Assembly (NCBI GenBank): GCA_903850425.1
Contig: CAINLR010000017.1
Span: forward strand, 1 to 64,000
Source: an uncultured Verrucomicrobia subdivision 3 bacterium
GTDB taxonomy: Bacteria; Verrucomicrobiota; Verrucomicrobiia; Limisphaerales; UBA11358
DNA length: 64,000 nucleotides
Direction: 5' to 3'
The notes beneath the pieces were generated by a model. It was not told the origin of the DNA and searched no databases. It saw only the letters and a program-made list of their open reading frames with translations. The translations under genes and the position numbers were made by a program. This document shows positions 48,640 through 63,786 of this stretch, one piece after another. Position 1 is the first letter of the stretch. Each line of letters starts with the position of its first letter.

Positions 48640-50058
48640 GTGAGCCAGTTTCTCTCGTCGCTCGAAAGCGAAATCCAGTCGCGCGGTTTGCTGCCGCGCG
48701 GCGCGAAAGTTCTCGTCGCCGTTTCGGGCGGCGTGGACTCGCTGGTGCTGCTGCATGCGCTTCATCTGCTGGCGGGCAAGCATGGCTGGAAAATTTTCGT
48801 GGCGCATTTCAATCACCAGCTTCGCGGCCGGGCCAGTGATGCGGATGAAAAGCTGGTCCGCCGGGCTGCCGCGGTTCTGAAGTTGCCGATTGCGGTTGAA
48901 AGTGCGGAGGTCAAAGCGTTCGCCCAGAAGTCAAAATTCTCCATCGAAATGGCGGCGCGTAAACTGCGCCACGAGTTTTTTGCGCGGACGGCGAAACAAC
49001 AAAAGAGTTCCATCGTGGCTCTCGCGCATCATGCGGACGACCAGGTGGAGTTGTTCTTTTTGCGCGTCTTGCGCGGTGCCGGCGGCGAAGGCCTGGCGGG
49101 AATGAAATGGCGTTCACCTTCGCCCGTGGAGCACAAGCTCACGCTGGTCCGACCGCTGCTGGCCTGCACCAAAGCCGGCCTGCGGGCGTTCGCGCGTGAA
49201 AGCAAAATCCGTTTTCGCGAGGATGCGACGAATACCTCCGCCGATTTTCTACGCAACCGAATTCGCCATGAACTCATTCCGCTGTTGCAAACGAGTTATC
49301 AGCCGGGACTGGCCAAAACAATTTTGCGGCTGATGGAAATTGTCGGGGCGGAATCTGACTTTGTTGGCGAAGCGGCGCAGCAATGGCTTAGTGGCCGCGG
49401 ACGGGCGTCGGCTCAAAACAAAAGTCAGAGCCTACTCACGTCGACGGCTACCATTGAAAAACATAGCTTTGCGAGTCTGTCTGTCGCAGTGCAGCGGAAA
49501 GTGGTGCAACGCCAACTGCTGGCGCTGGGTGTGGCGGCGGATTTTGAACTGATCGAGCCGCTCCGCAAAACGCCGGACCACTGGGTCAGCGTGCGCGCCG
49601 GTTGGTCGGTCGCGCGCGATGGAGCGGGGAAGGTTCGGTTGCAGGAACAATTTGAAGCGCAATTCCAAGCCGATGAACTTGCATTTACCTTGCAGGGCAG
49701 GGCAGGGCAGGTGGAACTTGGCGGCAAAGAAATTTGCTGGCGTTTGACGCCGGCCAAGAAATTTGTCCGGCCGCAATCTCAAACCGGCGGGGAAGTTTTC
49801 GACGCGGACCAAATTGGGAACGAACTTATTTTGCGCCATTGGCGGGCCGGCGACCGTTTCCAGCCGCTGGGCTTGCCGTCGCCGGTGAAACTGCAGGACT
49901 TATTCGTGAACGCAAAAATTCCCCGCGCCCGGCGGCACGAACTGGTGGTGGCGACGACGCGGACGGGCGAGATTTTCTGGGTGGAGGGTTTGCGGATGAG
50001 CGAACGCTTCAAGTTGACAGCGGCGACGCGGTGTCAGTTGGTCTGGAAATGGAGCTGA
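48640..50058 (+). CDS. tilS: tRNA(Ile)-lysidine synthase
   Basis: The 472-residue cytoplasmic protein has the PP-loop VLVAVSGGVDSLVLLHAL (about 24-41), the HFNHQLRGR segment (LRG-x(2)S-like), IVALAHHADDQVELFFLRVLRG, and the C-terminal TilS domain (LRHWRAGDRFQPLG and VNAKIPRARR). It changes the C34 wobble base of AUA-reading tRNA-Ile to lysidine. GTG 48640 is the start that matches the family. It is separated by 123 bases from the following redox run. Confidence 0.95.
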   Translation: MSQFLSSLESEIQSRGLLPRGAKVLVAVSGGVDSLVLLHALHLLAGKHGWKIFVAHFNHQLRGRASDADEKLVRRAAAVLKLPIAVESAEVKAFAQKSKFSIEMAARKLRHEFFARTAKQQKSSIVALAHHADDQVELFFLRVLRGAGGEGLAGMKWRSPSPVEHKLTLVRPLLACTKAGLRAFARESKIRFREDATNTSADFLRNRIRHELIPLLQTSYQPGLAKTILRLMEIVGAESDFVGEAAQQWLSGRGRASAQNKSQSLLTSTATIEKHSFASLSVAVQRKVVQRQLLALGVAADFELIEPLRKTPDHWVSVRAGWSVARDGAGKVRLQEQFEAQFQADELAFTLQGRAGQVELGGKEICWRLTPAKKFVRPQSQTGGEVFDADQIGNELILRHWRAGDRFQPLGLPSPVKLQDLFVNAKIPRARRHELVVATTRTGEIFWVEGLRMSERFKLTAATRCQLVWKWS

Positions 50059-50181: not shown

Positions 50182-51402
50182 ATGAATAAACATCAGTTGC
50201 CCACCTCGCGCCGCACTTTTCTTAAATCCACGCTGACCCTGCCGGTCGCGCTGGCCGCCGCCCCGTCGCTGCTGACGCAATCCGCCCGCGCCGCTGATGC
50301 GCCCGCCGCCGCCGCCAGCGAACCCTTGCCCCGCCGCCAACTTGGCAAGGATGGTCCGCAGGTCACGATGTTGAGCATGGGTGGCATGATGGCGGCGTTA
50401 AGCCCGGACTACATTGACATCGCCTGGTCCATGGGCATTCGCTATTTCGACACGGCTCATAGCTATCTCAACGGTCGCTCGGAAAAAATCTTCGCGCAGT
50501 GGCTGGCCAAATATCCCGAGCGCCGCAAAGAAATCTTTCTCGTTTCCAAAGACAATCCGCGCCAGGGCCCGGAGCAGATGCTGGAATCCATTGACCAGCG
50601 GCTAGCGGCGTGTGGGACGACTTATCTCGACGCTTTTTACATCCATGGCATTGGCGGCGCGAATCACCTGGGCTGGCCCAAGAGCGACGCCTTCAAAACG
50701 ACGGCGGCGGCCCTGAAGAAATCCGGCAAGGTCAAGATGTTTGGTTTTTCCTGTCATGACGGGATGCTGACAGATTATCTGAACGCGGCGGCGGAGAGTG
50801 GAAATGTTGACATCATCATGCTGGCGTTCAATCCGTTTTATGAAAAAGGCGGCGCCTTCGACAAGGCGCTGGATGCCTGCCACCAAGCCGGCATCGGCCT
50901 CGTCGCCATGAAGACGATGCGCACCACCAAAGACGTGCCGAAGCGACTGCCGGAACTCGACAAACTTGGCCTCACCACGCATCAGGCCGTGCTGCATTCC
51001 GCCTGGAGCGACCCGCGCATTTCCGCCGTCTGCAACATGATTGACAACGTGGATCAGATGACCGCCAGCACCGCCGCCGCGCGCAGTTACAAGGCTCCGC
51101 TCAAATTCGCGCACATGGAATTGCTCAAGGAGACCATCCTGGCCAGCCGCCGCACGATGTGCACCGGTTGTCCATCCTGCGAAGCGTTCGCAAAGCAAAC
51201 TGGCTTTGCGTTCCACGACATTTCCCGCTTCGTTACCTACTACGAGCAGGATGGCAATACCGAGGCGCGGGAATACTACCATGCGCTTCCGGTGGAGGTC
51301 CGCGACGCATCGCAAGTGGATCTCGCTGCGTTGCGCGACGGCTGTCAGTTCAAAACGGACTATCCGGAAATCATGCGCCGCGCCGAACGTTACTTCGCCT
51401 GA
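50182..51402 (+). CDS. Tat-exported aldo/keto reductase paralogue 1 with cysteine cluster
   Basis: The 406-residue product has a twin-arginine signal (TSRRTFLKSTLTLPVAL, AxA near 38). The aldo/keto reductase barrel has RYFDTAHSYLNGRSE (D and Y of the tetrad), DAFYIHGIGG and KMFGFSCHDG. The C-terminal part carries CTGCPSC (C-x2-C-x2-C) and a late DGCQFKTDYPE, as in the AKR group that binds an iron-sulfur cluster; the usual fourth cysteine at +3 is absent. It acts in the periplasm if Tat-exported. The next gene starts 3 bases after its stop and is its paralogue. Confidence 0.88.
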   Translation: MNKHQLPTSRRTFLKSTLTLPVALAAAPSLLTQSARAADAPAAAASEPLPRRQLGKDGPQVTMLSMGGMMAALSPDYIDIAWSMGIRYFDTAHSYLNGRSEKIFAQWLAKYPERRKEIFLVSKDNPRQGPEQMLESIDQRLAACGTTYLDAFYIHGIGGANHLGWPKSDAFKTTAAALKKSGKVKMFGFSCHDGMLTDYLNAAAESGNVDIIMLAFNPFYEKGGAFDKALDACHQAGIGLVAMKTMRTTKDVPKRLPELDKLGLTTHQAVLHSAWSDPRISAVCNMIDNVDQMTASTAAARSYKAPLKFAHMELLKETILASRRTMCTGCPSCEAFAKQTGFAFHDISRFVTYYEQDGNTEAREYYHALPVEVRDASQVDLAALRDGCQFKTDYPEIMRRAERYFA

Positions 51403-51404
51403 AT

Positions 51405-52625
51405 ATGAAAAAGCCCGCTCTCTCCCGCCGCAATTTTCTCCGCAACGCGATGATCGCGCCCGCCGGTCTGGCGCTGGCCTCGTCCCTTTCCGCGAAGGCA
51501 GCGGACGAAGCCAAGCCCGCCGCGCCGGTGGCTGCGCTGGTCCCCACCCGCAAGCTGGGCAAGAACGGCCCGGAAGTGAGCATGTTGAGTTTGGGCGGCG
51601 ATCTGCCGGCTTACAGCGTGGAGCATCTCGATGTCGGCTGGTCGCTCGGCATTCGCTATTTTGACACGGCCTCGATGTATGGCGGCGGCAACGACGAAAC
51701 CAAGGTTCAGGAATGGCTCACGAAATATCCCGAACGCCGCAAAGACCTGTTCTTGGTGACCAAAGATCATCCGCGCACGCCGGAGCAGATGATTGAAATG
51801 GTGGACCGCCGGTTGGAAAAATTGAAGACGAGCTATCTCGATCTTTTTTTTATCCACGGCCTCAATGCACGCGAGTATGGACCGGAGTCTTTGGAATGGC
51901 CGAAAAGCGACACATTGAAAAAAGTCGCGGACAAACTCAAGAGCTCCGGCAAAGTAAAGCTAGTTGGCTTTTCCTGTCACGACGGACAGGCCAACGAATA
52001 CCTGACCGCCGCCGCGCAAGGCGGATTTCTTGACGCCATCATGGTCAAATACACGCCGTTCTTCACGAAGGGCGATGGTTTTGACAAAGCTCTCGATGCC
52101 TGCCACGCGGCGGGCATTGGCCTGATCGCAATGAAAACATTGCGCAACGCCGCCGACTCGCCGAAGCGCCTGCCGGAATTTGACAAGCTCGGCCTCACGA
52201 CGCATCAGGCGTTGCTGCAAGCCTGCTGGAGTGATCCGCGCATCGCCGCCGTTTGCAACCGGATGCAAAATGCGGACAATATTCAGACCAGCGTCGCCGC
52301 TGTGCGCGCCTACAAAGCCCCGCTGAAAATGGCGCACATGGAATTGCTCCGCGAAACGCTGATGGCCAGCCGCCGCGTGATTTGCCCTGGCTGTCCCGCC
52401 TGCGATAAGATGGCCGCAGAATTGGATTTTGCTTTCCACGACATTTCGCGTTTCGTCATGTATTATGAACAAGACGGCGATCTCCGGGCGCGCGAGCAAT
52501 ATCATCAGTTGTTAGCCGCTCATCGCGACGCGTCGGACGTGGACCTCACCGCACTGCGCGACGCCTGCCAGTTCAAAGTGGATTATCCCGAAATCATCCG
52601 CCGCGCGGAACGCTATTTCGCCTGA
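51405..52625 (+). CDS. Tat-exported aldo/keto reductase paralogue 2 with cysteine cluster
   Basis: The 406-residue product starts at ATG 51405 with Tat motif LSRRNFLRNAMI. It has the same layout as the preceding gene: RYFDTASMYGGGNDE, DLFFIHGLN, KLVGFSCHDG, HDISRFVMYYEQDGD and the CPGCPAC cluster. The ends are nearly the same in both (DACQFKVDYPE, RRAERYFA). They are tandem duplicates that have diverged in the mid-region, which may mean different substrates or a heterodimer. Confidence 0.88.
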   Translation: MKKPALSRRNFLRNAMIAPAGLALASSLSAKAADEAKPAAPVAALVPTRKLGKNGPEVSMLSLGGDLPAYSVEHLDVGWSLGIRYFDTASMYGGGNDETKVQEWLTKYPERRKDLFLVTKDHPRTPEQMIEMVDRRLEKLKTSYLDLFFIHGLNAREYGPESLEWPKSDTLKKVADKLKSSGKVKLVGFSCHDGQANEYLTAAAQGGFLDAIMVKYTPFFTKGDGFDKALDACHAAGIGLIAMKTLRNAADSPKRLPEFDKLGLTTHQALLQACWSDPRIAAVCNRMQNADNIQTSVAAVRAYKAPLKMAHMELLRETLMASRRVICPGCPACDKMAAELDFAFHDISRFVMYYEQDGDLRAREQYHQLLAAHRDASDVDLTALRDACQFKVDYPEIIRRAERYFA

Positions 52626-52707
52626 TGCCGCCGCCCTGAACCGGCCAATTAAATGAAACCTGCGGCGTCTGTGTCCGTCTCATGTGGCGGTTCTCGAAAC
52701 TGAATTC

Positions 52708-53871
52708 ATGGCGAACGAAAAAAAATCCGGAGGCGGCAACCGCAAACAGTTTGTCCGCTCCAGAATTTCGCTGGGCGAGCGGATTTCAAGTGTTGTTATC
52801 TTCGTTTTGCTCGCAGGCATTGGCGTCGCGATCGACATCAAAGGAAAACATTTTGACCCGAATCTCTTCGCCGTCCGCACTGAATCGTTGAACTCCACCA
52901 AGGCAGCGGTTGAGGGCAAGGCCGGCACGGCGAGTTCAACCCCGGCAGCCAAATCCGTGGTTGAAACTGCGGTCGCCGAAAAGCCGGCCGTTTCTGAAGA
53001 GGGCGCCGCCGAAGGCGGCGCGGAACCTCCTGGCGGCGCGCCCAAAATCGCGATAAAAAGCGAGCCGCTGGAAATTTCGCTCGCCGGCCTCAAGCCGATG
53101 TCGCCCACGGAATTTTACAACTCCGATAATTTGTTCGAAAAAATTGACGGTCGCGCGCCGGCCTATCAAGGCTTCAACGTCCAACAACTGCGTTGCCGCT
53201 CTTTTAATGTTGTGGCGCTGTCTGGCAGTTATGTGGACGTTTACGAATATCGTTTCGACTCGCCCGTGGACGCGTTCGGCATGTTCGCACTGGAGCGCGA
53301 CCCGAAGGGCCAGTCACTCGACTTTGCGCCTGACGGTTATTCTGGTGAGATGGGTTACTTTTATCGGCAAGGCGCGGTGTATGTCCAAATTATCGCGTCG
53401 GACGTAAAACCAGAAACGCTGGCGCTAGCCAAAGCTGTCGCGCTCAACCGCGCCAAAGCATTACCGGCGGATGATCATGGTCTCGCGGGGCGCCGCAAGC
53501 TGCCCGTTGCCGGCATGATCGCCGACACCGTTTCGTTTGTGCCCGAAAACGCGCAAGGGCAGGCGGTGTTCAAGGACGTGTTCCAAGCCAAATACAAATT
53601 TGAAGACGCGGAGTTGCCGTATTTCGTCATGGTCACCACGCCCGATGACGCGGCCAAGGCGTGGAAATCGTTTCAAGATTTCTGCGGACGGTTCGGCAAA
53701 GCGGAGAATTTGCCGGAGGTGAACGGCGGCAAGATTTTCAGCGCCCAGGTTTTCGGCAAATGGAAAGTGGTCTATCAGCGCGAGGGCGAACTCGGCGGCG
53801 TGTTTGACGCGGGGGATGCTGGCAAGGCGCGGGGGTTCATCGAAAAGTATTTGCGCGGCGAGATTAAGTGA
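52708..53871 (+). CDS. DUF6599-like exported protein
   Basis: The 387-residue product has one transmembrane or signal-anchor helix (about 28-48), a low-complexity alanine/glutamate/glycine linker (about 65-115) and a C-terminal domain with SPTEFYNSDNLFEKIDGRAPAY, SYVDVYEYRFDSPVDAFGMF and a matching second half. That looks like the DUF6599 family (assigned from memory). Its function is unknown. ATG 52708 is preferred to GTG 52684. It sits between the reductases and the DUF362-like gene on the same strand with short gaps (82 and 21 bases), so it is likely one operon. Confidence 0.7.
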   Translation: MANEKKSGGGNRKQFVRSRISLGERISSVVIFVLLAGIGVAIDIKGKHFDPNLFAVRTESLNSTKAAVEGKAGTASSTPAAKSVVETAVAEKPAVSEEGAAEGGAEPPGGAPKIAIKSEPLEISLAGLKPMSPTEFYNSDNLFEKIDGRAPAYQGFNVQQLRCRSFNVVALSGSYVDVYEYRFDSPVDAFGMFALERDPKGQSLDFAPDGYSGEMGYFYRQGAVYVQIIASDVKPETLALAKAVALNRAKALPADDHGLAGRRKLPVAGMIADTVSFVPENAQGQAVFKDVFQAKYKFEDAELPYFVMVTTPDDAAKAWKSFQDFCGRFGKAENLPEVNGGKIFSAQVFGKWKVVYQREGELGGVFDAGDAGKARGFIEKYLRGEIK

Positions 53872-53892
53872 ATAGATTAGCTAACAATTAAC

Positions 53893-54912
53893 ATGAGTGC
53901 CACGAACCCTAAAGGCCCTTCGCCGCCGCCGGAAGATTCCGTCAGTCGCCGCGAGTTTCTCGTTCGCCTCGGCGTCACCGGTGCGCTGATTGCCGGTTCC
54001 GGTCTGGCCGCGAAGAAACTCTGGCAGCCGAAACATTTTGTTCCCGGTTTTGAACAAACCAAAGGTTCGCAGTTGCGTAGCTACGCGCCAGAGGCCAGCA
54101 AAGTGCTCCCGTCACTCGCCATTGCGCACGGCACGGAGCATGAGAAAACCATCCGCGCCGCCCTGGCTGCGCTCGGTGGCATGGGGCGGTTCATCCAAAA
54201 CGGCGACGTGGTGATGATCAAACCAAATGTTGCTTTCGATCGTCCCCCCGCGCTGGCGGCGACGACGCATCCGGATGCGCTGCGGGCGGTGGCGAAGCTG
54301 TGCTTCGAGGCGGGCGCGCACAAAGTCATCATTGCGGACAATCCCATTAATTCCCCAACCGGCTGTTTTCTCAAGAGCGGCATCACCGCCGTTGCCTCGG
54401 AAATGAATCTGGATTTGATGTATCCGGAGACTAATTCTTTCGCGCCACTTTCACTCACGGGCGAGATTTTGAAGGAATGGACTTTCTTCAACACGCCGTT
54501 CAAGCAGGCGACCAAAGTGATCGGCCTCGCGCCGTGCAAAGATCACAATTTGTGTCACGCCTCGATGACGACGAAAAACTGGTATGGTCTTCTCGGTGGT
54601 CGCCGCAACCAATTTCACCAGCACATCCACAGCATCGTTTCCGATTTTGCACTGATGATGAAGCCGACGCTGGTCATCCTCGACGGCATGAGCGTGCTGA
54701 TGAGCAACGGCCCGACCGGCGGGCGGCTCTCGGACGTGAAAGTGATGAACACGATCGTCGCCGGCACCGATATGGTGGCCGTGGACAGCTATGGCTATTC
54801 GCACTTGCTGGAACGTGACATCGCCGAGCTGACTTATTTGCACAAGGCGAATGATCGCGGCCTCGGCCAAATTAATTGGAAGGACACGCTCTACAAAGAG
54901 GTTCAAGCGTGA
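53893..54912 (+). CDS. DUF362-domain Tat-exported protein
   Basis: The 339-residue product has a twin-arginine signal (VSRREFLVRLGVTGALIAG). A DUF362 domain follows, with VVMIKPNVAFDRPPALAATT, KVIIADNP and APCKDHNLCHASMTTKNWYG, then DGMSVLMSNGPTGG. DUF362 proteins often stand with ferredoxin-type proteins. Its stop overlaps the next start (GTGA at 54909-54912), so translation of the two is coupled. The Cys in NLCHASM could be a ligand. Function unknown. Confidence 0.85.
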   Translation: MSATNPKGPSPPPEDSVSRREFLVRLGVTGALIAGSGLAAKKLWQPKHFVPGFEQTKGSQLRSYAPEASKVLPSLAIAHGTEHEKTIRAALAALGGMGRFIQNGDVVMIKPNVAFDRPPALAATTHPDALRAVAKLCFEAGAHKVIIADNPINSPTGCFLKSGITAVASEMNLDLMYPETNSFAPLSLTGEILKEWTFFNTPFKQATKVIGLAPCKDHNLCHASMTTKNWYGLLGGRRNQFHQHIHSIVSDFALMMKPTLVILDGMSVLMSNGPTGGRLSDVKVMNTIVAGTDMVAVDSYGYSHLLERDIAELTYLHKANDRGLGQINWKDTLYKEVQA

Positions 54913-56498
54913 AGTTCAAATTCAATTTTCAAGATTGGCTCAAGCTCCGCAACGTCCGCCGCGTCGCGCAGGTTTTCTTCTTCAGCCTGTTCCTGTTTTT
55001 TGTTTTCGTCACCGACCTGCGTTATCTCAAAGGCTATCCGGTCTCGCTGTTTCTGGAACTTGACCCGCTCGTCGCTTTCGCCACGGCCATCACTACGCAC
55101 ACGGTTTACATGGGGTTGATGTGGAGCTTGCTGTTGATCTTGCCGACACTGTTGTTTGGCCGGATTTTCTGCAACTGGATTTGTCCCTACGGAATTTTGC
55201 ATCACTTCACCGGTTGGCTGCTCGGCAAAAGTCGGGCGGAAGAACGCGAGCGCATCGAGGCCAATCGTTACAAAAAATTGTATTCGCTGAAATACGTCAT
55301 CCTCATCGCGATGATCGCGGCGGCCATCGGCGGCACGCTGCAAATCGGCTGGCTGGATCCCATCTGCCTGTTCCATCGCTCGATGAGCACGGTCATTCTG
55401 CCACTCATTAATTTATTCGTGCCGTCGAGCGTTTACGTCCGCCAATATTTTCATGTCGGCGCGTGGGTGATTGGTTTCATTTTGCTGTTCCTCGTCGGGA
55501 TGAACCTCGTCATCCCGCGCTTCTTCTGTCGCGTGCTGTGCCCGCTCGGTGCGTTTCTGGGCACGCTCTCAACCGTGGCGCTGTGGCGCATTGACCGCGA
55601 TACCACCAAATGCGTGGATTGCGATCTCTGCCTGAAAAGCTGCGAAGGCGCTTCGGATCCACAGACGCAGTTGCGCAAGAGCGAATGTTTTGTCTGCTTC
55701 AACTGCATTGAGGACTGCCCAGAGGACGCGCTCTCATTCAAATTTTTGCCACAACTCAAGCGTGAAGTTACCACGCCGGTCGTCACCGGACGCCGCGCGT
55801 TTCTGGGCACGTTGATCGGGTTGGGTTTTTATGCCTTTGGCCGCACGTCGGGCGCGAGCGCGCGGAACTACGACAAAAAAGTCATCCGCCCGCCCGGTTC
55901 CGTGGAGGAAATAGATTTTCTCGACCGCTGCATCAAGTGCGACCAGTGCATCCGCACCTGCCCGACGAACGTGCTCCAACCCGCGTTGATGGAATCCGGC
56001 CTCGAAGGCATCTGGACACCGATCCTCAACATGAAGCTCGGTGCGTGCGACGTGAACTGCGTCCTCTGCGGCCAAGTCTGTCCGACCGGCGCGATCCAGC
56101 GGATCACCATCGAGGAAAAAACCGGCACCGGGCCGTTTGAAAAGGAAGGGCCGATCAAGCTGGGCACCGCGTTCTTTGATCGCGGGCGTTGCCTGCCGTG
56201 GGCGATGGAAACCCCGTGCGTCGTCTGCGAGGAAGTCTGCCCGGTTTCACCGAAGGCAATTTTTTCCCGCGAAGTGACCATCACCAAACGCGACGGCACG
56301 CCGATCACGCTGCGCCAGCCTTACATGGATCCCGCGTTGTGCATTGGCTGCGGCATTTGCGAACACGAATGTCCCGTCACCGACGAGGCCGCCATCCGCG
56401 TCACGGCCGTGGGCGAAACCCGCTCGCGCGACCGCCGCCTGCTGATGGACGGCGGCGTGACCAGTTCCGTGCGCGATTTGGAAAAACGACCGCGGTAA
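54909..56498 (+). CDS. NapH-NapG-like iron-sulfur fusion (membrane plus periplasmic ferredoxin parts)
   Basis: The 529-residue product has two parts. Residues 1-290 resemble NapH: helices near 17-37, 64-85, 129-150 and 180-200, a GRIFCNWICPYG motif, then CVDCDLCLKSC (about 235) and CFVCFNCIEDCPED (about 260). At about 293-310, GRRAFLGTLIGLG looks like a twin-arginine signal inside the chain. Residues 320-529 resemble NapG/MauM: CIKCDQCIRTCP, CVLCGQVCP, CVVCEEVCP and CIGCGICEHECP. NapGH is known as a quinol-oxidising module that passes electrons to the periplasm. The gene overlaps the DUF362 stop by 4 bases (GTG start). Confidence 0.85.
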   Translation: MKFKFNFQDWLKLRNVRRVAQVFFFSLFLFFVFVTDLRYLKGYPVSLFLELDPLVAFATAITTHTVYMGLMWSLLLILPTLLFGRIFCNWICPYGILHHFTGWLLGKSRAEERERIEANRYKKLYSLKYVILIAMIAAAIGGTLQIGWLDPICLFHRSMSTVILPLINLFVPSSVYVRQYFHVGAWVIGFILLFLVGMNLVIPRFFCRVLCPLGAFLGTLSTVALWRIDRDTTKCVDCDLCLKSCEGASDPQTQLRKSECFVCFNCIEDCPEDALSFKFLPQLKREVTTPVVTGRRAFLGTLIGLGFYAFGRTSGASARNYDKKVIRPPGSVEEIDFLDRCIKCDQCIRTCPTNVLQPALMESGLEGIWTPILNMKLGACDVNCVLCGQVCPTGAIQRITIEEKTGTGPFEKEGPIKLGTAFFDRGRCLPWAMETPCVVCEEVCPVSPKAIFSREVTITKRDGTPITLRQPYMDPALCIGCGICEHECPVTDEAAIRVTAVGETRSRDRRLLMDGGVTSSVRDLEKRPR

Positions 56499-59235: not shown

Positions 59236-62200
59236 ATGAAAACACCAAAACTTAACTCTCGATTGATTCTCGCCGCCGGCTTATGCCTGCTGAGCGCGTT
59301 CACGCCCCGCGCGCAGGCCAATGACTGGAACGCCGGCACCGACTATTGGAATAATGCCGTCAACTGGAATGGCGGAATCCCGGACGACTCCGGTGGCTGG
59401 GCCATCGGTAACATCGGCAACAATGGCACGGCCATTGTCAGCAATGCGCCTCCGCACGTCAGCGAGGCTTGGGCCGGCAACAACGGAACGGCCGGCAATA
59501 TCTGGGTGACCAACGGCGGCACTCTCAACGTGGACAACTGGCTGGTCGTGGCGCGCAACGACGCGAACGGCAACACCCCTTTGTCCACCCTCACCGTCAG
59601 CGCCGGCGGGGTGATCAATAAAGGCGGCGATGGTTTCCTGATTTCTGACAACAACAACGGCAACGGACAGATGTTTGTTACCGGCAACGGCATCGTGAAC
59701 GTGACCGGCGGCTGGAACAGCATCGGTAACAGCGCGGCCGGCGGCACGTTGACCTTGCAGGACAACGCCGTTTACAATGCGCTCGGCCGCGACTGGAACG
59801 TTGGCGACTACGGCGCTGGCCGCGGTGTGGTTTACATCAAAGACAACGCCACGCTCAACGTCAATCGCTTCTGGCTCGGCAAAGGCGGCACCTCGGTGGG
59901 TGCGCTGTATCAGACCGGTGGCACGGTCAACGACACCGGCGGTGGCAACGAGTGGACCTTCGGTGGCGATGGCAGCGGAGATACCGCCACCAGCGGCTTT
60001 TACAGCCTCGCCGGCGGCACGTTGACCTGTCCGGATAACTTTCAAGTCGGCCGTTATGGTAAGGGCTTGCTTTATCAGAGCGGTGGCACGAACACCCAGA
60101 GCGGTTGGTGTGATACCGCCCGCAATCCGGGCTCCATCGGCGTCACCTGGCTGACCGGCGGTTTGCTCCAGCATACCGGCACGGGAACGCGCTATTTCGT
60201 CGCCGAGCAAGGTCGCGGCGAAGTGACCGTCTCCGGCTCCGGCATCTTGGATACGGCGGTGAACATTGTCATCGGCGGTGCGGGCATCGCGGTGGGCACC
60301 TTGAATCTTAACAACGGCGGCACACTGCGTGTGCCGGGCGTTGACCACTGGGGTGGCACGTCGTCGTATTTGAATTTGAATGGCGGAACCGTGGTCGCGA
60401 AAGTGTCCAATAGTTCCTTCATGATCGGCAATTTGACCGAAGTTGCCGTTTATGCCGGCAACGCGGTGTTTGATACCGCTGGCAATAACGTGACCGTGGC
60501 TCAGAATTTGATTGGTGCCACTGGCAGCGGCGTGCAAAGCATTGCGGTGACCGATGGCGGTGCGGGTTATTTGACTCCGCCGATTGTCACGATTGACGCC
60601 AGCGGCGTAGGCAGCGGCGCAACGGCCGTGGCCCAGATTAATCCGGTTACGGGCAAAGTCACCAACGTCGTGGTGACCTGCTCCGGTTATGGCTACACTG
60701 GCACTCCTGGCGTTTCCGTAGTGGGTGGCGGGTCTTCGGCTGACGCGACGCTCACGGCAGCGGCTCCGGTCGCTCTGACGGCTGGCGGTCTGACCAAAAA
60801 TGGTAACGGCACACTGACACTTACGGGTGCCAACACCTATACCGGCGCGACGGTCGTGAACGCGGGCACGCTGGTGAACAACACCGCTTCCACCGGTTCC
60901 GGCAGTGTGACCGTTGCCAACGGCGCGGGCTATGGCGTTAAGGTCCTCGTCGCTGGCACTCAGTTGACTAATTCCAGCCTCACTTTGGGCACTTCGGCGG
61001 CGACCTCGTTTGCCTTTGACTTGGGCGGTGACGGCAATCCGGCCGTGGCTCCTTTGGTGGTGACCGGCGTGCTGGCGGTCAATGGCACCAACACCGTGAA
61101 CATTGCCGACGCACTGCCACAGGCGCTTCCGCAGTTTGCGCTGATCAAATATGGTTCCAAAACGGGCGCTGGCAAATTTGTCCTCGGCACCCTGCCTACC
61201 GGCGTTCAGGCGACCTTGATTGATAACACGGCCAACAAGTCCATTGACCTGTTGATCACCAGCGTGGGTCTGCCCCGTTGGGATGGCCGGGTGGCCGGCG
61301 CGGTCTGGGATATCAACACGACGACCAACTGGATCGAACTGAGCACGGGGCTGGCGACGAAGTATAAAGACACCTTCCCGGTTTTGTTTGATGACGCGGC
61401 CCTGGGCAGCACGACGATCAACCTCACGGCCAACGTTCTGCCGGGCGCGATCTCGATCAGCAATTCGACGCTGAACTACATCCTCAACGGCACGGGCAAG
61501 ATCGGCGGCACCGCCGGAATCACCAAACAGGGTTCCAACACGTTCTCGATTGCCAATGCCCTCAATGATTACACCGGCGCAACCGTGATTCTCGGCGGGA
61601 CGCTCGCCGTGACCAACCTCGCCAACGGCGGTGCAGCCAGCGCCATCGGCAAGTCCACTTCTGATCCGGCCAACCTCGTGCTCGCCGGTGGCACTTTGAG
61701 CTACTCGGGACCGGCGGTCACTGTTGATCGTGGTTACTCGGTTCAATCCGCTGCAGGCATCATTGATGCCGAGAGCAACTTTGGTTTGAGTGGTGCGACG
61801 ACCGTCGGGCTCGGCGGTTCAACCATCAAAGCCGGGCCGGCGCAGTTGACTTATACGGGCGCGGGCATCAAGGAACACAACAGCTATCGCATGAACTACG
61901 GAACCGTGCTCTTCGACGGCACCGGCGTGGCGCAGACCAACCACAACCAAGGTGAAATGTGGGTTGGTGCCATCCCCGACACGAGCGCGTCCATGGTGGT
62001 GAGCAACACCATTCTGAACATTGATAGCTGGCTGGCGATTGCGCGGGGCAATGGTAGTGTGGGCAATACCTCCAGCGTCACGCTCTATAACGCCAAAATG
62101 AGATCCGGCGCTTTCTCAATGGGTTACGATGGTGGTCTGGCTGGCAATCTGGAAATGCCGTCCTTCACCTTCAATGGCAACTCCACCTTCACCAATAATG

Positions 62201-63786
62201 GTGACTCTAACATCGGCGAAAGCACTGGCTCCACCGCGACCATGCTGCTGAAAAATACTTCCGCCTTCTATTCGCAAAATCGCGTTCACCTGGGCTGGCA
62301 TTCTGGAGCCACTGCCTTTCTGACCCTCGCGGACTCCAGCACCATGATGGTCAACGCTTGGTTCTCGGTGGCCAACGAAGGCGGCACGGGCACGCTTACC
62401 TTAAAGGATAACAGCAGCCTTTATGTGCTCCAAGACATGAACGTCACGGATGTGAATACCGGGAATGGTGAACTCGACGTTCAGAACAACGCCCAACTCA
62501 TCTTCGGCAGTTGCTTCATCGGCAAAGGTGTCGGCAGTTCTGGCGTGGTGAACCAATCCGGCGGCGCGCTCATCGGCCGGGCCGATGGTAACGAAATGCA
62601 CGTTGGTTTCCACGGTCAAGGCACTTACACCATGAGTGGCGGCAGTATCACATTGAACAATCATTGGTTCGTCGTCGGTCGTTATGCCGATGGCCCGGGC
62701 GAGTTCAACCTAAACGGGGGCATCATCGTTCACAACACCACGGGCAAGCGCGTGCAAATCGGCGAGGACGGCACAGGCGTCCTCAACGTCAATAGCGGCT
62801 CGCTCTCGACGATTGGCAACGAACTGGCCATCGGCCTCAATGCCAGTGGCAACGGCACGGTCAACCTCAACGGCGGTTCCATCACGGCCCGCCGCGTCAT
62901 CGGCATCAATGGCGTCAGTGCGTTTAACTTCAACGGCGGTCTGTTGCGCGCCGGGCCCAACGCCCAGGCCGACTTCATGACCGGCATTGGCAACGCCTTG
63001 GTATTGGTCGGCGGCGCGAAAATTGATACCGACACCAACACGGTCAACGTTGCGCAATCCTTGCTGGATGGCGATGGCCTGGGCGGCGGTTTGACCAAGA
63101 CCGGTAACGGCACCCTGCGTTTGAATGGCGCCAATACTTACACGGGCACCACAACGGTCAGCGCCGGCACGCTCGGCGGCAACGGCACCATCGCCGGTCC
63201 CGTGATGATCGCGGCAGGGGCCACGTTCTCGCCCGGTTCCTCCATCGGCACGCTCACCATCAACAACACGTTGAGCCTCGCCGCCGGCAGCACGACGGTT
63301 TTGGAAGTCAATAATACGACCGCCACGAATGACTTCATAACCGGCACCAGCTTGGCCATCAACAACGGCGGCACTTTGGTGCTGAAAAACCTGAGCGGCG
63401 CACTGAAAGCGGGCGATTCATTCACGGTGTATGGTCCCGGAACCTACAGCGGTTCTTTCAGCAGCGTGGTTTCACAGACTCCCAATCAGTTGGTGACGTG
63501 GGATGTCGATCAGTTGAAAGCGGGTGGCAATGGTAAGATCACAGTCTTCACCGCCGTGGCCGCGCCCGTGACCCTCGCGCCGGTCGTGAGCGGTGGCAAA
63601 TTCAACCTCACCTGGCCCGCGAGCCAAATCGGCTGGCAATTGCAATCCCAAGTCGGCGCCGCGGCGGTGGGCCTGAGCACTAACTGGGTGGTGGTGCCCG
63701 GCTCGACGCTGACCAATCAGGTCAGCCTCCCGGTGGACAGCACGGAACCGACCGAGTTCTTCCGGTTGGTGTTTCCGGCCCAGTAA
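59236..63786 (+). CDS. large secreted protein with autotransporter-associated beta-strand (PATR) repeats
   Basis: The 1516-residue product has a signal peptide (about 1-28) followed by solenoid-like beta repeats rich in G, N and T. Three PATR motifs are clear: GLTKNGNGTLTLTGANTYTG (about 516-535), ITKQGSNTFSIANALNDYTG (about 761-780) and GLTKTGNGTLRLNGANTYTG (about 1287-1306). Two long halves (about 60-400 and 900-1240) have similar strand patterns ('W..VA', 'IG...GGTLTL..N'). There is no C-terminal autotransporter barrel; the protein ends in the short module with EFFRLVFPAQ. It is probably a surface or extracellular structural protein. Confidence 0.88.
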   Translation: MKTPKLNSRLILAAGLCLLSAFTPRAQANDWNAGTDYWNNAVNWNGGIPDDSGGWAIGNIGNNGTAIVSNAPPHVSEAWAGNNGTAGNIWVTNGGTLNVDNWLVVARNDANGNTPLSTLTVSAGGVINKGGDGFLISDNNNGNGQMFVTGNGIVNVTGGWNSIGNSAAGGTLTLQDNAVYNALGRDWNVGDYGAGRGVVYIKDNATLNVNRFWLGKGGTSVGALYQTGGTVNDTGGGNEWTFGGDGSGDTATSGFYSLAGGTLTCPDNFQVGRYGKGLLYQSGGTNTQSGWCDTARNPGSIGVTWLTGGLLQHTGTGTRYFVAEQGRGEVTVSGSGILDTAVNIVIGGAGIAVGTLNLNNGGTLRVPGVDHWGGTSSYLNLNGGTVVAKVSNSSFMIGNLTEVAVYAGNAVFDTAGNNVTVAQNLIGATGSGVQSIAVTDGGAGYLTPPIVTIDASGVGSGATAVAQINPVTGKVTNVVVTCSGYGYTGTPGVSVVGGGSSADATLTAAAPVALTAGGLTKNGNGTLTLTGANTYTGATVVNAGTLVNNTASTGSGSVTVANGAGYGVKVLVAGTQLTNSSLTLGTSAATSFAFDLGGDGNPAVAPLVVTGVLAVNGTNTVNIADALPQALPQFALIKYGSKTGAGKFVLGTLPTGVQATLIDNTANKSIDLLITSVGLPRWDGRVAGAVWDINTTTNWIELSTGLATKYKDTFPVLFDDAALGSTTINLTANVLPGAISISNSTLNYILNGTGKIGGTAGITKQGSNTFSIANALNDYTGATVILGGTLAVTNLANGGAASAIGKSTSDPANLVLAGGTLSYSGPAVTVDRGYSVQSAAGIIDAESNFGLSGATTVGLGGSTIKAGPAQLTYTGAGIKEHNSYRMNYGTVLFDGTGVAQTNHNQGEMWVGAIPDTSASMVVSNTILNIDSWLAIARGNGSVGNTSSVTLYNAKMRSGAFSMGYDGGLAGNLEMPSFTFNGNSTFTNNGDSNIGESTGSTATMLLKNTSAFYSQNRVHLGWHSGATAFLTLADSSTMMVNAWFSVANEGGTGTLTLKDNSSLYVLQDMNVTDVNTGNGELDVQNNAQLIFGSCFIGKGVGSSGVVNQSGGALIGRADGNEMHVGFHGQGTYTMSGGSITLNNHWFVVGRYADGPGEFNLNGGIIVHNTTGKRVQIGEDGTGVLNVNSGSLSTIGNELAIGLNASGNGTVNLNGGSITARRVIGINGVSAFNFNGGLLRAGPNAQADFMTGIGNALVLVGGAKIDTDTNTVNVAQSLLDGDGLGGGLTKTGNGTLRLNGANTYTGTTTVSAGTLGGNGTIAGPVMIAAGATFSPGSSIGTLTINNTLSLAAGSTTVLEVNNTTATNDFITGTSLAINNGGTLVLKNLSGALKAGDSFTVYGPGTYSGSFSSVVSQTPNQLVTWDVDQLKAGGNGKITVFTAVAAPVTLAPVVSGGKFNLTWPASQIGWQLQSQVGAAAVGLSTNWVVVPGSTLTNQVSLPVDSTEPTEFFRLVFPAQ
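63601..63786 (+). other. shared C-terminal module, copy 4 (PATR protein)
   Basis: The last 61 residues contain FNLTWPAS, GWQLQSQVG, STNWVVVPG and the ending EFFRLVFPAQ, in line with the other three secreted proteins. Confidence 0.6.

Follow-up and report, generated by a model that had tools for sequence, protein, structure and literature searches.

The NapGH quinol dehydrogenase of the periplasmic nitrate reductase combines membrane and ferredoxin domains and has a probable quinone link, and a family of polyferredoxins described in 2017, to which the MLMS-1 protein (PFD) belongs, was found with reporters to undergo dual insertion by the general secretory (Sec) and twin-arginine translocation (Tat) pathways (Tooke et al., PMC5449189). 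Other described systems relevant here are the enzymes of the LarA lactate racemase superfamily, which use the nickel-pincer nucleotide (NPN). In about 15% of genomes larB, larE and larC occur without larA (Nevarez et al., PMC11796402); according to the same authors, the NPN-using protein of cyanobacteria still awaits identification, and they expected the fold of such an NPN protein to be distinct from that of LarA. Here we describe a five-gene cluster at positions 50182-56498 of a 64,000-nucleotide stretch of DNA (the window) from an uncultured Verrucomicrobia subdivision 3 bacterium, encoding two aldo/keto reductases (AKRs), a DUF6599 protein, a DUF362 protein and a NapH-NapG fusion (NapHG). 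The best explanation of the whole, to which we give a probability of roughly 0.55, is a quinone-linked module with an NPN-carrying DUF362 protein. No paper on this operon was found in the searched literature, and a search that left out subscription papers and preprints found none proposing DUF362 as an NPN protein.

The window lies on contig C17 of a 6.9 Mb assembly in 197 contigs (genome label G000). The five genes are:

50182-51402, plus strand: AKR1, 406 residues, Tat-type; matches PF00248 (2e-20), with the tetrad D90/Y95/K123/H155 conserved in alignment
51405-52625, plus strand: AKR2, a second Tat-type AKR with 60% identity to AKR1; matches PF00248 (1.4e-22)
52708-53871, plus strand: DUF6599 protein; matches PF20244 (6e-35, 120.8 bits against a cut-off of 27); AlphaFold predicted local distance difference test (pLDDT) 86
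53893-54912, plus strand: DUF362 protein, 339 residues, Tat-type; matches PF04015 (1e-43); AlphaFold pLDDT 92
54909-56498, plus strand: NapH-NapG fusion; Fer4_5 and dicluster ferredoxin domains (Pfam), NapH-like and NapG-like halves (NCBIfam)

Successive genes are separated by 2, 82 and 21 bases and the last two overlap by 4 bases; an earlier note on this DNA had described the same five same-strand genes with a first gap of 3 bases, which is in fact 2. Its family assignments are borne out, in that both AKRs carry a Tat-type twin arginine and a conserved four-cysteine motif, the DUF6599-like anchored protein matches PF20244 and has an N-terminal helix, the DUF362-like Tat protein matches PF04015 and has its own twin arginine, and the membrane iron-sulfur protein likened to a quinol dehydrogenase has the Fer4_5 domain, dicluster ferredoxins and NapH/NapG-like halves. 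Compared with congeners, all five genes are under purifying selection (dN/dS 0.05-0.16).

The distribution of the cluster confirms that it is real and conserved beyond chance. Across the 49 genomes of the genus to which the window belongs, DUF6599 is present in 23, NapHG in 23 and one or other in 25, and most cluster-bearing genomes retain the order AKR1-(AKR2)-DUF6599-DUF362-NapHG, with AKR2 optional; NapHG is on a separate contig in three genomes, and in at least one the cluster is divergent and the AKRs lie downstream. Beyond the genus we compared 80 named NapHG loci, some cut by contig ends, from Planctomycetota, Acidobacteriota, Desulfobacterota, Gemmatimonadota, Kiritimatiellae, Poribacteria, Armatimonadota, Myxococcota, Bacteroidota and others. 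Adjacent to NapHG in these loci are DUF362 (65), a DUF6599-type gene (49) and an AKR (27), all four families being together in 20; the conserved core is therefore DUF362-NapHG, and DUF6599 and AKR are frequent partners. The genes are thus not scattered in relatives, which was the test of gene order that the earlier note had named. When 338 genomes were sampled from the phylum, four had an AKR match at E<1e-60, and all four carry NapHG, adjacent and in the same orientation. The small genomes of another genus of the same class, g3 (L226 5198-7945), encode LarC and have DUF362-NapHG as a bare pair, with neither DUF6599 nor an AKR. The core pair also has a version in gut Bacteroidota, on a Parabacteroides distasonis plasmid (NZ_OY725750.1; L272 1387-3813), where a DUF362 gene with an N-terminal twin arginine and the full family signature stands beside a NapH/NapG-like 4Fe-4S gene, with an aldose 1-epimerase nearby. 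Among the loci compared, no substrate-specific transporter, hydrolase or other clue to a substrate recurs in the flanking genes.

What ties the cluster to NPN is the company it keeps. LarC (PF01969) is present in 25/25 genomes of the genus with the cluster and in 6/24 without it (Fisher p=1.2e-8), a figure which, like the other Fisher p values given here, overstates the case because the genomes are related, which the test ignores, and because some thresholds were chosen after looking. The window genome itself encodes LarB, LarC and LarE in a larB-larC-larE run (G000:C66; L269 7021-10335), and LarA (Lar_N, PF09861) has zero matches in the assembly at E<=0.001. The larB-larC-larE genes of four congeners are neighbours of the cluster, no more than about 3 kb from NapHG; seven Acidobacteria have larE-larC-larB directly upstream of NapHG, with DUF362 genes usually downstream; and larC and larB are near the cluster in one Hydrogenedentes locus, so that lar genes adjoin it in three phyla. 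Over the 338 genomes, strong DUF362 matches and LarC are associated (172 with both, 36 with DUF362 only, 41 with LarC only and 89 with neither; p=2e-21), and the association holds among the 62 that are LarA-negative (30, 4, 4 and 24 respectively; p=2.8e-9). In genus g3 the LarC set and the DUF362 set are the same 18 genomes, and one genome without LarC is also without DUF362. Synechococcus elongatus and Haloferax, both in a set of 14 control genomes, encode LarC and DUF362 but not LarA. A LarA match without a PF01969 match is seen in nine genomes of the phylum sample, and LarC detection may therefore be incomplete in some lineages. Among the plasmid records listed in searches for LarC and DUF362, one large record has both, which is uninformative on co-occurrence.

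The predicted structure points in the same direction. Foldseek and VIA-align 2 agree on LarA-type racemases as the matches of the DUF362 model: against LarA and malate racemases VIA-align 2 gives Z 15-17 (best Z 17.2, 2.8 Å over 207 residues), and unrelated chains score about 5 or less. The DUF362 protein is thus predicted to have the fold of the LarA N-terminal domain. DUF362 had served as an outgroup in work on the LarA superfamily, chosen because the two share Pfam clan CL0471 (PMC11770544). Together with the larB/C/E linkage, this cofactor-domain fold (Z 17) is what DUF362 has in common with the LarA superfamily; it differs in having neither the C-terminal domain nor a Lar_N match, in being Tat-type and in being paired with an electron carrier instead of having a racemase role. 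Two features of the protein are relevant:

53947-53952, plus strand: Tat twin arginine R19, R20, invariant in 40 aligned relatives
54538-54618, plus strand: signature K216-x-H218-x9-K228-N229-x2-G232-x5-R238-x3-H242

The signature occurs in 70/90 DUF362 hits overall and in nearly all full-length strong ones. In the best profile alignment to LarA, which has a weak E-value, H218 falls on H174, K228 on the NPN-tethering K184 and H242 near the nickel ligand H200; because that E-value is poor, these placements are only a lead, with K228 and H242 as candidates for the tethering lysine and the nickel ligand. Global profile alignment of DUF362 to LarA was unsuccessful, and a sequence search against the PDB gave nothing useful.

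A number of observations, the inflated p values among them, weigh against NPN as the cofactor. What the model covers of LarA is its N-terminal domain alone, the one that binds the cofactor (residues 34-266 of a 393-residue malate racemase chain), and the C-terminal domain is absent from the 339 residues of DUF362, which thus does not have the two-domain LarA architecture. The profile alignment reaches E 0.26, or a still weak 0.021 for a region chosen afterwards, and an alternative register places R238 on K184, though the GG that it needs is lost in divergent DUF362 members. Strong DUF362 matches without a LarC match are found in 36/338 genomes, two of which (G218 and G230) have the DUF362-NapHG pair; Bacteroides ihuae, among the control genomes, has DUF362 without LarC, and the Parabacteroides plasmid pair, with its signature intact, is a further exception. 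From the LarC-negative genomes with the pair and from the plasmid it follows that NPN is not universal in the family, or that other cofactors are used. Finally, the argument for NPN binding is one from fold and linked genes. With these points set against the fold and the linkage, we consider it somewhat probable that DUF362 binds NPN, and, contrary to the expectation of Nevarez et al., the data suggest that an NPN protein may be a distant relative with the LarA fold. That the NPN proteins sought in place of LarA are exported DUF362 proteins, acting outside the cytoplasm as net redox enzymes rather than racemases, with protein-bound NPN as hydride carrier, and linked by the polyferredoxin to the quinone pool, is a more tentative proposition, which we put forward as possible.

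The second core protein is of a known kind. Judged by its sequence, the fusion is a member of the dual Sec/Tat polyferredoxin family (PMC5449189) and hence not new: a NapH-like half (NCBIfam, E 1e-22) is joined to a NapG-like half (E 3e-25), with a twin arginine before the last membrane helix:

55791-55796, plus strand: internal twin arginine R295, R296, preceding the last membrane helix; R295 is invariant in alignment A4

The layout is predicted to be a membrane part with cytoplasmic iron-sulfur sites followed by an exported ferredoxin part. MLMS-1 PFD shares with the window protein the fusion, the membrane helices, [4Fe-4S] sites on both the cytoplasmic and the exported side and an internal twin arginine, in the same position as R295/R296; the 2017 paper makes no mention of DUF362 and, in the portion available, gives no partner genes or function, whereas the window fusion stands in a conserved operon. 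The difference from NapGH is greater, since the window protein is a single fusion, lies far below the NapG and NapH equivalog cut-offs (88.7 against 269 and 80.1 against 234 bits) and has no nitrate reductase gene in its cluster. Its closest named relatives, with up to 93% identity, are in metagenome genomes of Limisphaerales/Verrucomicrobia subdivision 3.

On the explanation we favour, the proteins of the operon would make up a redox module that is linked to quinones and works at the outer side of the cytoplasmic membrane, a periplasmic role that we hold to be highly probable. Quinol (or quinone) would exchange electrons with the NapH-NapG fusion, whose [4Fe-4S] clusters would carry them to or from the periplasm. 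DUF362 would fold with NPN in the cytoplasm, leave by the Tat pathway and carry out hydride chemistry outside with this bound, NAD-like cofactor as the carrier, so that free NADPH would not be needed there. The [4Fe-4S]-bearing AKRs would be exchangeable substrate-handling partners that offer, where present, a barrel for the substrate, and DUF6599 may be a membrane-anchored docking or assembly protein; this division of labour we infer. The earlier note had also proposed a periplasmic redox system that could pass electrons between quinones and a substrate, and a conserved, co-selected module with export signals and a quinol-dehydrogenase-like polyferredoxin is indeed supported, though with DUF362-NapHG and not the AKRs as its conserved core. 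Its idea of a new electron supply in place of free NADPH is plausible, with the evidence favouring DUF362 and the NAD-like NPN over iron-sulfur clusters feeding an AKR alone. A sugar or aldehyde from glycans, suggested there as the substrate, has nothing pointing to it and was therefore set aside. On the strength of a fold that matches, linkage in operons and co-occurrence across lineages, the cluster brings forward a candidate family of NPN users, which could be tested in the existing E. coli co-expression system, and it offers a first functional frame for DUF362, for DUF6599 and for a polyferredoxin family hitherto known mainly by topology. If exported DUF362 proteins are NPN redox enzymes of the kind put forward above as possible, they would add a new class to the nickel enzymes and allow nicotinamide-type hydride chemistry where free NAD(P)H is absent.

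Both AKRs of the window score above the PF00248 cut-off and have the D/Y/K/H tetrad, which places them in the AKR superfamily, and a signal of the RR-x-F type is present in nearly all cluster AKRs of the wider alignment. Their relevant sites are:

50209-50214, plus strand: AKR1 Tat twin arginine R10, R11, in an SRRTF motif; the twin arginine is retained across the Tat AKR family
51160-51180, plus strand: AKR1 motif CTGCPSC (C327, C330, C333), with the fourth ligand C388 at 51343-51345; predicted single [4Fe-4S] site
52383-52403, plus strand: AKR2 cysteine motif CPGCPAC, with C388 at 52566-52568, from alignment

C327, C330 and C388 of AKR1 are invariant in 11/11 proteins of alignment A1 and in 37/42 rows of the wider alignment. 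The pattern in cluster AKRs, CxxCxx(x)C plus a later cysteine, would suffice for one [4Fe-4S] cluster. Barrel and tetrad are retained, while the loop that binds the NADP phosphate, usually IPGxxR/K, is replaced in the alignment by CN/CSxM without R or K. With known AKRs that have a C-terminal ferredoxin-type cysteine domain they share the barrel, the tetrad and the CxxCxx(x)C plus later C(P) motif, and they differ in being Tat-type, in having mostly one cluster site and in the altered cofactor loop. In Kiritimatiellae and Acidobacteria an eight-cysteine, two-cluster pattern is found, with the tetrad lost in some. Three eight-cysteine Tat-type AKRs (L148 4870-6093, L150 1522-2715 and L114 5635-6852) have tetrad residues replaced (D by H, H by N, or both K and Y altered), as if the barrel had turned into an iron-sulfur carrier. 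The AKR was also considered as the NPN binder, and this was judged unlikely because the lar-linked operons of Acidobacteria often have no adjacent AKR.

The retained catalytic residues and cluster cysteines of the AKRs leave room for a quinone-linked periplasmic module without NPN, in which electrons pass between the polyferredoxin and the [4Fe-4S]-AKR or some different partner, DUF362 is a metal or nucleotide protein with some other cofactor and the lar genes serve something else in the same organisms. The DUF362-NapHG pairs in LarC-negative genomes would be expected if this were so, but the lar genes beside the cluster in three phyla, the contrast of 25/25 and 6/24 for larC within one genus and the absence of LarA from the window genome would go unexplained, and we regard it as rather unlikely. 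The conserved tetrad of the main AKR group would suit a Tat-exported AKR that folds before export around tightly bound NADP(H) and works as a closed-cycle oxidoreductase, with the iron-sulfur proteins accessory. Glucose-fructose oxidoreductase (GFOR), which is exported with bound NADP, is the precedent. That the phosphate loop has become CN/CSxM without R or K speaks against such an enzyme, as does the lack of an AKR in many DUF362-NapHG loci, for which reason the AKR is not core, and we think it improbable.

It might also be asked whether the cluster is not a catabolic or respiratory enzyme at all but a maturation or repair system for NPN or for an iron-sulfur cluster. Linkage to NPN biosynthesis genes would fit, as would the lack of a recurring substrate-specific transporter or hydrolase beside it. 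LarB, LarE and LarC alone, however, suffice to make NPN (PMC11796402) and the cluster proteins carry export signals, so that we give this reading hardly any credence next to a quinone-linked module with an NPN-carrying DUF362.

The DUF6599 protein is named in none of the papers in the searched literature. Its predicted topology is a single N-terminal helix followed by two Mog1/PsbP-like domains outside the membrane:

52783-52839, plus strand: predicted single membrane helix of DUF6599

Foldseek returned zero matches for the model at E<=0.001, and Z above 8 came only from a second-look aligner, with 1vr8 at Z 11.6, the PknH sensor at Z 9.4 and PsbP at Z about 6.

Directly upstream of the cluster and on the same strand (48640-50058) is a TilS-like gene for a putative tRNA(Ile)-lysidine synthase, and downstream (59236-63786) is a gene for a 1516-residue protein with what appear to be repeated autotransporter-like passenger motifs.

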